From positions 1-50,411 of the IMG/VR virus record IMGVR_UViG_3300010160_000064: a stretch of 50,411 bases of DNA; one strand, written 5' to 3'. The notes beneath the pieces were generated by a model. The model did no database searches. It saw only the letters and a list, made by a program, of their open reading frames with translations, and had not been told where the DNA came from. The stretch is from a virus. How positions within the stretch are numbered: position 1 is the first letter of the stretch; each line of letters begins with the position of its first letter. This document shows, in pieces, positions 2,258 to 50,099 of the stretch. Both the position numbers and the translations under genes were made by a program.

Positions 2258-5200
2258 TTATCCAAATATTGTATCTAGACTATTATTTGCAGCATTGTAG
2301 GTTACATATACAACACTGCTACTAATTGTGTTTGAAAAACCAACAACACCAGTATAACCAACATAAACATTTCCTGTTACGCCAATTCCACCAGTAACTT
2401 GTAATGCACCTGTAGTATTTGATATAGATGTGGTTGTATTTGTTATTATTAAATTACCAGTAATTGTTACATTACCGGTAATTGTACCACCAGTATTTGC
2501 ATTGACTGTATTGTTTGCTCTTGTATAAGCAGAGTTGGCTTGTGCAAAAGCACCATTAGCATATGAACCTGCTGGTATCGATGTATTAGCTATATCAAAA
2601 GCACCATTAGCATAAGAACTGATTGAAACCGTATTCGAACTGGCCGTATTAGCAATACCAAAAGCAGAATTAGCATATGAACTGATTGAAACTGTATTAG
2701 AACTGGCTGTATTAGCTATAGCGAATGCTGAGTTGGCATAGGAACCGGCTGCTGTTACAGCAGAACCAGTATTAGCAGCAGCAAAAGCACCATTAGCATA
2801 AGAACTGGCTGATCCTGCATTAGTGATGGCTGTATTTGAAGAAACAAATGCACCATTAGCATATGAACCAGCCGGTATCGCTGTATTGGCTACAGTGAAT
2901 GCTGAGTTAGCATATGAACTGGCTATTGTTGCATTAGTGATGGCTGTATTTGAAGAAACAAATGCACCATTAGCATATGAACCTGCTGGTATTGCTGTGT
3001 TGGCTATTAAGAATGCACCATTAGCATATGAACTAGCTGAATTAGCTATACCAAAAGCACCATTAGCATAGGAACTGATTGAAACCGTATTAGAACTGGC
3101 TGAGTTAGCTGTTAAGAATGCACCATTGGCATATGAACTGGCTGTATTAGCTCCACCAAAAGCACCATTAGCATAAGAACCTGCTGGTATCGCTGTATTA
3201 GCTATACCAAAAGCTGAGTTGGCATATGAACTGGATGATGCAGCATAGGAACTGGCTGTATTAGCTCCAGCAAAAGCAGAATTAGCATATGAACTAGCTG
3301 ATCCTGCATTAAAATTGGCTGAGTTAGCAATACCAAAAGCACCATTAGCATAAGAACTGATTGAAACTGTATTGGAACTGGCTGTATTGGCTGTTAAGAA
3401 TGCACCATTAGCATATGAACCTGCTGGTATCGATGTATTAGCTATAGCGAATGCGGAGTTGGCATAGGAACTGGCTATTGCTGCATTAGAACTGGCTGTA
3501 TTAGCACCAGCAAAAGCACCATTAGCATAGGAACCTGCTGGTATTGCTGTATTAGCTATACCAAAAGCAGAGTTGGCATATGAACTGATTGAAACTGTAT
3601 TAGAACTGGCTGTATTAGCTATAGCGAATGCTGAGTTGGCATAGGAACTTGCTGGTATTGCTGTATTAGCTACATTGAATGCTGAGTTGGCATAGGAACT
3701 AGCTGATGCAGCATTAGAACTGGCTATTGCTGCATTAGAACTGGCTGAGTTAGCGCCAGCAAAAGCACCATTGGCATATGAACCTGCTGGTATCGCTGTA
3801 TTAGCTACATCGAATGCAGAGTTGGCATAGGAACTAATTGAAACTGTATTGGAACTGGCTGTATTAGCACCAGCAAAAGCACCATTAGCATAAGAACCTG
3901 CTGGTGTTGCTGTATTAGCTACATTGAATGCTGAGTTGGCATAGGAACTAGCTGATGCAGCATTAGAACTGGCTGTATTAGCACCAGCAAAAGCACCATT
4001 GGCATATGAACCTGCTGGTATTGCTGTATTAGCAATACCAAAAGCAGAGTTGGCATAGGAACTGGCTGAAGCAGCATTAGAACTGGCCGTATTAGCTCCA
4101 TCAAAAGCACCATTAGCATATGAACTTGCTGAATTTGCAGTACCATATGCTGCATTAGCTTGGCTAAAAGCAGCGTTTGCTTGACGCCGCGCATATGCAG
4201 CACCTGTAAATGTGTTAGATGATTCAAACGCAACATTAGCTTGGTTGAAAGCTGCGTTAGCAAATTGCAACAAGTCGGTGCCGTAACTGGTTATTTTGTA
4301 ACCAGCAACATTTGCTATAAGTGTACCAACATTGGATTCTGTGGCTGAACCTGGACTTAATATATTCGATGATGGGTCTTCTGCTATATCTCTAAACAAC
4401 AAGAAATTATTGGAACCAGCTTGGCGAACTAATCCGTGATAAGTTGGTACAGCTGAACCGGCAGTTAATGAAGTACCATAAAAACCTATATCTAAAGTAT
4501 CACTAAGAACATTATTGTTGGCTAACTTAATTAATGAATCAGTTGTTTGTATGACCGTTGTATTTACGGATATTGTCGTTCCATTAATAAACAAATTTCC
4601 AGTAACTGTAACATCACCTGTAATTGTACCACCAGATTGAACATTTAAAGAATTATTTGCTCTCACATAGGCAGAATTGGCATATGAACCTGCTGGTATT
4701 GCTGTATTAGCTACTAAGAATGCCGAGTTGGCATAGGAACTGGCTGAATTGGAAGAAGCAAATGCACCATTAGCATAGGAACTGGCTGAATTAGCAATAC
4801 CAAAAGCACCATTAGCATAAGAACCTGCTGGTGTTGCTGTATTAGCTATAGTGAATGCAGAGTTGGCATATGAACTAGCTGAATTAGATATATCAAAAGC
4901 ACCATTAGCATAAGAACTGATTGAAACTGTATTGGAACTGGCTGTATTAGCTGTTAAGAATGCTGAGTTGGCATAAGAACCTGCTGGTGTTGCTGTATTA
5001 GCTATACCAAAAGCAGAGTTGGCATAGGAACTAATTGAAACTGTATTGGAACTGGCCGTATTAGCAATACCAAAAGCACCATTAGCAAAAGAACTTGCTG
5101 TATTAGCTCCAGCAAAAGCACCATTAGCATACAAACTCGCTAATCCTACACTAGTAATGGCCGTATTAGCTGCCACAAATGCACCATTAGCATATGAACC

Positions 5201-48277: not shown

Positions 48278-48492
48278 TATCGTTTACCTAGTGCAAATGT
48301 GATGCAGGTTGCAGTGGGTAATTGTTCATAAGCACACTTCACCGACAATGGATCAACACCTTTGGCGATTGCTGATTCCATGTTCTTTGCAAAGTTGTTG
48401 CGTTCATTTAGGTTGTAAACGGTGAAACCTGCAATAGCAGAACCAATTAAAATGCTCACACAAACAATATATGTCACTAATTCTTTATTCAT
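48277..48492 (-). CDS. Small single-pass membrane protein, 71 residues
   Basis: A longer reading frame starts at 48525, but the ATG at 48492 is favoured because an AGGAA ribosome site lies 6 bases upstream and the product then begins MNKELVTYIVCVSILIGSAI. Residues ~6-25 form one membrane helix, followed by a basic and polar domain with two cysteines (CAYEQLPTATC) that could pair outside the cytoplasm. It overlaps the end of the SleB hydrolase gene by 8 bases. Association with the wall hydrolase suggests a lysis-related role (holin, antiholin or spanin-like), but nothing in the sequence proves it. Confidence 0.72.
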   Translation of the reverse strand: MNKELVTYIVCVSILIGSAIAGFTVYNLNERNNFAKNMESAIAKGVDPLSVKCAYEQLPTATCITFALGKR

Positions 48493-49036
48493 AAAAATTC
48501 CTATTTCTGTCAATATTATCCACACGGCTTCTATAGAAAATGTGATGACCTATTTTCTTCACTTTTTCTAATTTCCACTGTGGATTTACATAGTCGGCAT
48601 GGTAGTATGTTGCACCTTGTGTAACATCTTCCTTGAGGTCACGATTTAGAATCATGTCCACAGCCAACTCACGAACTTCATTATACAATGAACTATCTCT
48701 AATTGTCAAGCGTTTACTGGTAATGTTTTTGTCACACAACCAGGAAAACTGACAGGTATCCCCCGTCTTCTGATGAACAACTCCGCAAATATCTTTACTG
48801 TAACCGGCTTGTACACGATTCATGGTAACAAAAGCAACAGCTTGTTTACCACTCAATGGTTCATGTCCAGCCTCAAAGTAAATGTTCTCTGCAAGGCATG
48901 TAACCTGCCTTTTTGTTGCCTCAGTAAGATTTTGGTAATCAGCTTTTAGGGGCATCCTAAAATTAATGTTTACCATGGAGAGGCAAAGAACTATTGCGGA
49001 AACTACTATGCTGAAAAGTATTGCTTTACTTCGCAT
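48485..49036 (-). CDS. SleB-type cell-wall hydrolase with N-terminal membrane anchor (endolysin candidate)
   Basis: The 183-residue product begins with a short basic tip and a hydrophobic helix (MRSKAILFSIVVSAIVLCLS), a signal peptide or signal-anchor. The catalytic domain follows the SleB/hydrolase-2 pattern: CLAENIYFEAGHEPLSGKQA (Glu50 and Glu55), VAFVTMNRV, ICGVVHQK, CQFSWLCD and GATYYHADYVNPQW (141-154). Cys47, Cys84, Cys95 and Cys101 may form disulfides in the periplasm. This family cleaves peptidoglycan and is frequent in phages of aquatic Proteobacteria and cyanobacteria. With a signal-anchor it could act as a SAR-type endolysin. The AAAGGAAA ribosome site is clear. Confidence 0.9.
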   Translation of the reverse strand: MRSKAILFSIVVSAIVLCLSMVNINFRMPLKADYQNLTEATKRQVTCLAENIYFEAGHEPLSGKQAVAFVTMNRVQAGYSKDICGVVHQKTGDTCQFSWLCDKNITSKRLTIRDSSLYNEVRELAVDMILNRDLKEDVTQGATYYHADYVNPQWKLEKVKKIGHHIFYRSRVDNIDRNRNFYE

Positions 49037-49112: not shown

Positions 49113-49556
49113 TTAGAAACTAAATTTAACGCCAGCAGTGATACGGCTACCGTTTTCTGCAACAACACGGTCTTGACCAGCTTGGTAACTGTAATCAAGG
49201 CCTGCTGAAACTGATTTAGTGATAGGCATACGAGCACCGACACCAACCGTAGCGGCATAACCATCATAAGCTGAACCTGATTGACTGTCAACAAAGACAG
49301 CACCAAATTTAGCATCAAGTGATACAGGTCCAAATTTTGCTACCTCTACAGCATTTACCAAACTATAAGAGTCGGCAGTTGTAGAACGATTGAAGCCTGC
49401 GGTTAAGTTATAACCTTTCACAGTTTCACCTACTGTAACACCCCAAACATTTTGCGTTGAGCTAAGATTAGTACCATCATTGATACCAACTTCTAAAGCC
49501 TGTGCGCTTGCAAATACACCCATAAGGGATGCGATAAGTACGAGTTTTTTAATCAA
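49113..49556 (-). CDS. Phage-encoded outer-membrane beta-barrel protein, TTG start
   Basis: The frame has no ATG at its head. It starts with TTG at 49556, six bases after a strong AAAAGGAG ribosome site. The product (147 residues) opens with a signal peptide (MIKKLVLIASLMGVFASAQA, probable cleavage after AQA) and continues with alternating strands such as VWGVTVGETVKGYNLTAGFN, VSLDAKFGAVFVDS, GYAATVGVGARM and VSAGLDYSYQAG. It ends GVKFSF: a terminal Phe is the outer-membrane insertion signal of barrel proteins. About eight strands fit, as in OmpX/OmpA-type barrels. Phages are known to carry such proteins (for example lambda Lom). A role in receptor masking, exclusion or envelope change is inferred. 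It lies 27 bases behind the tmRNA locus without an obvious promoter of its own. Confidence 0.87.
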   Translation of the reverse strand: MIKKLVLIASLMGVFASAQALEVGINDGTNLSSTQNVWGVTVGETVKGYNLTAGFNRSTTADSYSLVNAVEVAKFGPVSLDAKFGAVFVDSQSGSAYDGYAATVGVGARMPITKSVSAGLDYSYQAGQDRVVAENGSRITAGVKFSF

Positions 49557-49582: not shown

Positions 49583-49613
49583 GCCGACTGATTGGATAAT
49601 AAGGACAGTCGGC
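49583..49613 (-). terminator. Hairpin at the end of the tmRNA coding piece
   Basis: A perfect 8-bp stem (49606-49613 with 49583-49590) with a 15-base loop follows the tag frame. Only a weak AATTTGTT follows it, so it may be the 3' stem of the mature coding RNA rather than a strong terminator, which would let transcription continue to the outer-membrane protein gene. Confidence 0.6.
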
Positions 49614-49629
49614 GAAACCTCAGCTTAGC

Positions 49630-49662
49630 TTAAGCAGCTAGGCGATATGCGGAGTCGTTTGC
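49630..49662 (-). other. tmRNA tag reading frame (ANDSAYRLAA)
   Basis: Ten codons from a GCA resume codon to TAA give ANDSAYRLAA. The start is preceded by CGTAAAT, as expected upstream of a resume codon. The end LAA keeps the protease recognition element. Compared with the E. coli tag ANDENYALAA it differs at four inner residues; an Arg before LAA is unusual. Confidence 0.93.
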
Positions 49663-49748
49663 ATTTACGTTTTTTGCTTGATTAACGGTCATCGCCTACC
49701 GTGCTGTCCACTCTGTTACTCTTTGCCCTGTCGAAACTATGCAGGCCC

Positions 49749-49832
49749 ATCATAAAGATTGTGCTATTCCTTTTAGGAACTCTGCAATCATTTCAATAGC
49801 AGTTAATATTTTTTCTTTCATTACAATCCTTA
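49749..49832 (-). other. Intervening segment of the permuted tmRNA precursor
   Basis: The 84 bases between CCA and the first G of the coding piece would be removed in maturation. Their ends (TAAGGATTGT and ACAATCTTTA) can pair over ten bases with one G-U pair, extending the acceptor stem in the precursor and presenting it to the processing nucleases. Confidence 0.85.
49750..49821 (-). CDS. Possible 23-residue peptide encoded in the tmRNA intervening loop
   Basis: An ATG at 49821, six bases after AAGGA, opens a frame that ends in TGA at 49750, just inside the loop. The peptide starts MKEKILTAIEMIAEFLKGIA and would form an amphipathic helix. Start, ribosome site and stop all lie between the two tmRNA pieces. 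It may be chance, since only 24 codons are involved; the ribosome site would be sequestered in the extended acceptor stem of the precursor. Confidence 0.35.
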   Translation of the reverse strand: MKEKILTAIEMIAEFLKGIAQSL

Positions 49833-50099
49833 TGGTGGACCTGGGGGGATTCGCACCCCCGTCCAGAACACTTTTCTCTTTGCTTCATACAGCAATAAAA
49901 AACACTATACGGTCTATCTGCACTTTTAGGTTTCCCTAGAGTAATCTGGTGTACCAGCCCTGAGATTTGATATTATCTAATCTTCTATAGTGTTAAAAAA
50001 CACACTCAGGGAGATCCACCCTCCCGTACCCACAAAGTGGGAACTTAGTCTAATTGCACAGCCGAGCCATGTCCCAGTTCATAAGTGTGTTAATTATAT

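Follow-up and report, generated by a model that had tools for sequence, protein, structure and literature searches.

The minus strand of the window, that is, the whole stretch of 50,411 nucleotides analysed here, carries between positions 49,583 and 50,093 a circularly permuted (two-piece) tmRNA of the betaproteobacterial type. Indeed, the locus scores 133.9 bits against the Rfam model RF04321 (tmRNA_permuted; cut-off 47, E = 3e-27) and 101.4 bits against RF01850 (beta_tmRNA; cut-off 84), thus passing both curated cut-offs, ARAGORN calls a permuted tmRNA with the tag ANDSAYRLAA, and the tmRNA stretch folds better than 100 of 100 shuffles (z = −3.5); such agreement lies far outside what chance would give. 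On this strand, a promoter is followed by a long leader, an acceptor half with T-arm and CCA, an intervening segment and a coding half with the tag; the CCA-ending half is therefore encoded ahead of the tag-bearing one, the order by which permuted tmRNAs are recognized. The original prediction had placed a two-piece tmRNA here with its acceptor part first, and had described seven acceptor pairs including a G3-U, a T-arm, an encoded CCA, a tag ending in LAA and a consensus promoter. Both covariance models and ARAGORN, which it had named as means of verification, agree with it, and each of these elements is present in the sequence. The features of the locus, with the basis for each in brackets, are the following:

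50,128-50,100, minus strand: sigma-70-like promoter, TTGACA-17-TACAAT (sequence)
50,091-49,995, minus strand: module E1, a cloverleaf-like structured RNA with a closing stem and three arms (covariance model, 115.7 bits; covariation)
49,995-49,900, minus strand: module E2, a structured RNA with the core UCAGGGCUGGUA..ACCG (covariance model, 89.2 bits; covariation)
49,897-49,833, minus strand: tmRNA acceptor piece, the 3' half of the tRNA-like domain, about 65 bases (RF04321 and beta_tmRNA alignments)
49,860-49,844, minus strand: T-arm (sequence)
49,843-49,837, minus strand: acceptor 3' strand, CAGGUCC (sequence)
49,836-49,833, minus strand: discriminator A and encoded CCA (sequence)
49,832-49,749, minus strand: intervening segment, 84 bases (fold; comparison of 80 segments)
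49,831-49,827, minus strand: Shine-Dalgarno AAGGA of the 23-codon ORF (sequence)
49,821-49,750, minus strand: candidate 23-codon ORF, MKEKILTAIEMIAEFLKGIAQSL (enriched as a class, alone not significant)
49,748-49,583, minus strand: coding piece, with GGGCCUG, UUUCGACA, a stem, the tag frame and a 3' hairpin (ARAGORN; Rfam; sequence)
49,748-49,742, minus strand: acceptor 5' strand, GGGCCUG (sequence)
49,662-49,630, minus strand: tag frame ANDSAYRLAA*, resume codon to stop (ARAGORN; translation)
49,613-49,583, minus strand: 3' hairpin of the coding piece (sequence)

The strands GGGCCUG and CAGGUCC form an acceptor stem of seven pairs, including the G3-U70 of the alanine type, and the tag frame ends in small hydrophobic residues. 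tmRNAs are aminoacylated via G3-U70, bind SmpB, rescue ribosomes and add tags of the protease type. Transcription of the locus would start near position 50,093. On the plus strand, a match to the Rfam family KCNQ1OT1_1 (11-16 bits, cut-off 70) was put down to chance.

The genes of the window are T4-like, and comprise those for gp32, gp59, tail sheath, baseplate wedge, tube cap, head closure, DNA end protector and long tail fibres. The locus lies at the end of the window record, a position that could betray an assembly join or a bacterial chromosomal insert beside phage genes, against which the original prediction had cautioned. However, a longer and separately recorded IMG/VR viral contig (L106, 170,520 bases) shows 100% identity to the window across the 1,489 overlapping bases of the fetched stretch and continues past the window end with the remainder of a phage-type exonuclease gene, a tryptophan-halogenase-like gene and genes for 2OG-Fe(II) oxygenases, and relatives show the same gene order. 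With phage genes on both sides of the tmRNA, and L106 matching over the compared part, we rejected chimera and insert, which we consider extremely improbable; the tmRNA is phage-borne, as originally proposed. The phage RNA may, as originally proposed, replace the tmRNA of the host or compete with it. A search of the 170-kb L106 contig revealed no SmpB gene, whereas the identical search was positive in ten control genomes; thus, the phage tmRNA, if working, must use the SmpB of the host.

The neighbourhood also contains, directly downstream of the tmRNA, a 147-codon ORF (49113-49556, minus strand), whose start resembles a signal peptide and which matches nothing in Pfam or PHROG, and next after it a cell-wall hydrolase/endolysin gene (48485-49036, minus strand). 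On the other side, two 2OG-Fe(II) oxygenase genes and the tryptophan-halogenase gene occupy positions 53-2743 of L106, directly upstream of the exonuclease gene.

Permuted tmRNAs are already documented in phages. The T4-like methylophage Melnitz has a two-piece tmRNA, as do 17 of 47 Melnitz-like contigs, and 53 two-piece tmRNA predictions, of which 50 are marine or aquatic, were reported in 2022 among 18,146 phage genomes (PMC9004378); 79 unique bacteriophage tmRNA sequences are listed in the work in which the RF04321 model was built (PMC11915505). When IMG/VR was searched with the DNA pattern of the window's T-arm, at least 120 stretches matched. Of 128 loci examined with ARAGORN, 107 were assigned a permuted tmRNA and 5 a standard one, the 107 including the window itself and L106 and coming from a T-arm pattern that favours this tmRNA type. 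At least about 100 further phage permuted tmRNAs are hence present in IMG/VR besides that of the window. Among cultured phages, they occur in the Stenotrophomonas phages Bhz51 (annotated as ssrA), Moby and QDWS359 and in the Xanthomonas phages X1 and Rb1; together with Melnitz these make six isolates tested, each of which scores above the cut-off of RF04321. The permuted tmRNA of the window's phage is thus a further example of a kind already known in phages, several of them with T4-like genomes, and the original suggestion that such a gene is unusual in a T4-like phage was overstated, as Melnitz, the other isolates and the IMG/VR loci have them.

With the betaproteobacterial permuted tmRNAs (RF01850, RF04321), the window shares the order of the pieces, the T-arm, the acceptor stem, the CCA, the UUUCGAC motif and a tag frame of the AND..LAA type, in line with its scores above the cut-offs of both models. 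It departs from them by about 190 bases of extra structured leader, by a candidate ORF in an intervening segment of 84 bases and by its location in a phage genome. Melnitz, Bhz51, Moby, QDWS359, X1 and Rb1 resemble it in having a phage-borne permuted tmRNA, several of them in T4-like genomes. However, the tmRNA of Melnitz is described as alpha-like, whereas that of the window is of beta type, and the former reportedly stands beside a glutamine riboswitch (PMC9004378), none of which was found at the window locus.

The leader is what sets this locus apart. The original prediction had described an acceptor side of about 260 bases closed by two helices; the helices are there, but the length is made up of about 190 bases of added modules and an acceptor piece of the ordinary kind, some 65 bases long. 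The approximately 190 bases that separate the promoter from the acceptor piece resolve cleanly into the modules E1 and E2, each with its own closing helix (ACACACUUA/UGAGUGUGU and AACACUAUA/UAUAGUGUU). Where the leader of a relative is readable, the conserved acceptor piece mostly opens with UAUUGCUGUAUGAAGC immediately after a promoter or an upstream gene, and a promoter or gene likewise immediately precedes UAUUGCUGUAUG in most relatives. Only four of 53 distinct leaders (those of the window, L113, L011 and L032) have a closing helix, and the leader of L113 consists of E1 alone and that of L011 of E2 alone. In the window, a U-run follows each closing helix; this run is not conserved in relatives, which ruled out E1 and E2 as transcription terminators. 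A third module may be present in the leader of L032, where some 112 bases closed by UUAACGCACA/UGUGUGUUAA adjoin the acceptor piece, with a sequence unlike those of E1 and E2.

E1 comprises the closing stem, a two-base linker and an arm of 4-5 bp with an inserted hairpin, then a second arm of 4-5 bp and a 5-bp arm that bears a 7-base loop and stacks on the closing stem. A pattern scan detected E1 in 12 IMG/VR contigs, and a looser pattern returned the same 12, exact-pattern scans being of a kind that picks up near relatives only. Among these 12, E1 directly adjoins the acceptor piece in eight, and in L106, i.e. the window's phage, E2 lies between the two. In L143, E1 adjoins a variant tmRNA whose tRNA-like domain differs, and in L139 a gene lies between E1 and this same variant; L137 is arranged as L139, on a fetched stretch too short to show the tmRNA. 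The covariance model added five diverged members (L123-L127, E about 1e-6), each directly 5' of a permuted tmRNA, so that E1 is seen 5' of a permuted tmRNA in all but one of the 12 + 5 contigs. In most E1-bearing relatives, the same promoter precedes E1.

The gene between E1 and the tmRNA of L139 is HNH-like by eye and has no Pfam match. L143 has the variant tmRNA of L139 without this gene, and its flanks are like those of the window. This suggests a mosaic exchange of the tmRNA body.

E2 was found in the leader of seven contigs (L011, L106, L130, L132, L133, L134 and L135), and in L147 it lies between the CCA and the coding piece. Diverged members occupy the intervening position in L010, L048, L108 and L068 (26-30 bits, E about 1e-5), and UCAGGNNUGGUA...ACC(A/G) forms the conserved core across E2. 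As E2 occurs at two positions flanking the acceptor piece, it more probably folds as a module in its own right than forms part of the ring of the mature tmRNA. L086, which has the upstream gene and the acceptor start of L011, L130, L134 and L135 and yet no E2, represents a natural empty site. Three further pattern matches (L129, L131 and L146) were taken as chance, since they fall in coding-like sequence with no adjoining tmRNA.

Covariation points to structure in both modules. Among 11 distinct E1 sequences, 14 of 29 pairs have changed on both sides and 96% of the cells are paired, and among 11 E2 sequences 13 of 24 pairs have done so, with none of 500 shuffles reaching the score in either case; these counts lean towards structure, since the alignments were fitted to the covariance models, and a few diverged members supply much of the covariation. 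Helix 5 of E2 is paired in only 82%, and P3 in the E2 of the window departs from the majority helix.

For E1, Rfam gave nothing at E ≤ 10 in L123 and L113, its matches in the window were due to chance or to the tmRNA, and the E1 pattern had only two unrelated matches in bacterial and archaeal genomes. For E2, no credible Rfam family match was obtained, and the glutamine riboswitch family matched neither module. Neither module was found in the six isolated phages with a permuted tmRNA (Melnitz, Bhz51, Moby, QDWS359, X1 and Rb1). Each phage genome scanned that has a module contains a single copy (E1 in one genome, E2 in four), and, chance matches apart, no copy away from a tmRNA was seen among the phage records scanned. 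That E1 and E2 represent two structured RNA families absent from Rfam is shown by their covariation, their recurrence and the empty site. We found no prior description of either in Rfam 15 or in the literature searched, of which coverage was partial.

The layout of E1 recalls a tRNA cloverleaf, with its closing stem, two-base linker and three arms, the last of 5 bp with a 7-base loop, and the best non-E1 matches of an enlarged E1 model are two tRNAs. However, Rfam and ARAGORN see no tRNA in it, a hairpin is inserted in the D-like arm, there is no CCA, and the window departs from the T-loop consensus. We rejected E1 as an actual tRNA, as no tRNA tool recognizes it and the window lacks this consensus; its descent from a tRNA is conceivable, if rather doubtful.

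The intervening segment has features of its own. In the predicted fold, its ends form an 11-bp helix (49,833-49,823 with 49,762-49,752) that extends the acceptor stem. The segment of the window opens with UAAGGA five bases ahead of an AUG, and the resulting 23-codon ORF ends with a UGA adjoining the coding piece; its AAGGA is buried in the 11-bp helix. Taken singly, this ORF is not significant (shuffle fraction about 0.10), but as a class such frames are enriched: 15 of 71 distinct phage segments contain one against 1.2 expected from shuffles, an ORF being counted if led by a Shine-Dalgarno sequence and spanning at least 85% of the remaining segment length. Its sole comparison, with L136, gave one synonymous difference, and it has no domain match; coding by this ORF, which the original prediction had missed, is plausible. 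The pair L138/L142 was rejected as proof of coding, all of its 8 codon differences being non-synonymous. A clearer case is provided by L016 (reverse complement, about 4019-4142) and L085 (reverse complement, about 3230-3353), whose segments encode an Oxidored-like domain (PF09791, E = 9.5e-12). Their frames differ by 13 synonymous codons and one conservative replacement, a pattern that marks the nested gene as being under purifying selection. This frame is open upward into the acceptor piece, where the conserved CUGUAUGAAG would supply the start AUG. Small intervening ORFs are probably translated in some relatives, and possibly in the window. In L140, L141 and L145, the segment between CCA and coding piece includes a tRNA-like stretch (UAAGG-UUCAAGU-CCUUU), for which ARAGORN makes no tRNA call.

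Taken as a whole, the locus is quite likely a phage precursor of a beta-type permuted tmRNA that carries E1 and E2 as modules. A single precursor would be transcribed from its own sigma-70-like promoter. By analogy with the permuted tmRNAs already described, RNase P and 3' trimming would release the acceptor piece (approx. 49,897-49,833) and the coding piece (approx. 49,748-49,583), alanyl-tRNA synthetase would charge the tmRNA, and host SmpB would bring it to stalled ribosomes, where nascent chains would receive ANDSAYRLAA; on the same analogy we presume the tmRNA of the window to be active. E1 and E2 could form a compact 5' end that helps to protect, fold or process the precursor and is removed during maturation. 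Such an action on the precursor, in its maturation or stability, is suggested by position and conservation, and we hold it tentatively, at somewhat under an even chance. It offers the simplest account of the company of permuted tmRNAs, of the conserved loops and structure, of the presence or absence of the modules as units and of the tolerance of E2 at two positions.

Several other roles have to be weighed against this one. The modules might be kept on the mature acceptor piece and replace the pseudoknots that stand before the tRNA-like 3' half in one-piece tmRNAs: their position immediately 5' of the acceptor piece is that of the last pseudoknot, and with their closing stems they would form compact side domains. 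However, E2 also occurs between the CCA and the coding piece, where maturation would remove it, and most relatives manage without either module, which makes this role unlikely. We give a little less credit to riboswitch-like leaders that sense a ligand or a protein and set the amount of tmRNA. Their conservation at the 5' end of the transcript, their highly conserved loops, the U-run after each closing helix of the window and the glutamine riboswitch reported beside the Melnitz tmRNA (PMC9004378) would all fit, but no known riboswitch family matches E1 or E2, the U-run is not conserved, and a copy of E2 in the intervening segment cannot govern the start of transcription of the acceptor piece. 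Filled and empty sites, two insertion positions for E2, the gene between E1 and the variant tmRNA of L139 and the mosaic tmRNA bodies would be expected if the modules were passengers or mobile elements, inserting beside tmRNA genes without any benefit to the tmRNA; RNA-level covariation, conserved loops, a single copy per genome and, chance matches apart, the confinement to tmRNA loci render this reading less probable again. Scarcely different in probability, and just below it, is the release of the modules by processing as independent small RNAs with the tmRNA gene as mere carrier. In its favour, each module, about 95 bases long, forms a self-contained fold, has a closing stem of its own and is found as a unit, yet both are tied to permuted tmRNAs and were seen nowhere else in the phage genomes scanned.

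A different question is whether the phage tmRNA hinders trans-translation by the host instead of aiding it. A tag-less tmRNA form of phage DS6A, expressed in Escherichia coli, inhibits the endogenous tmRNA (PMC11915505); at the window, however, the tag frame is intact, as are the acceptor stem and the CCA, and interference of this kind appears the least probable of these alternatives to a working tmRNA with precursor-acting modules.

For E1 and E2 themselves, we incline slightly towards regarding them as two new structured RNA classes of phage pre-tmRNAs, which, together with the nested small genes, would make the locus a modular, multi-function transcript that goes beyond a copied bacterial ssrA. 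Phage tmRNAs are common. Conserved modules associated with permuted tmRNAs, able to stand on either side of the acceptor piece, provide a handle on how the precursor is made, stabilized or controlled during infection, and two RNA families with covariation support outside Rfam are open to direct test. Genes nested in an excised segment of a tmRNA precursor, if confirmed, would be an unexpected packing of coding capacity into a non-coding RNA gene.

Among the phage loci, unusually long tags are predicted in L072, L092, L093 and L115, of 27 residues (AKANTTVTVSGKNVKFSARTAKESLAV and a relative) and of 31 residues.
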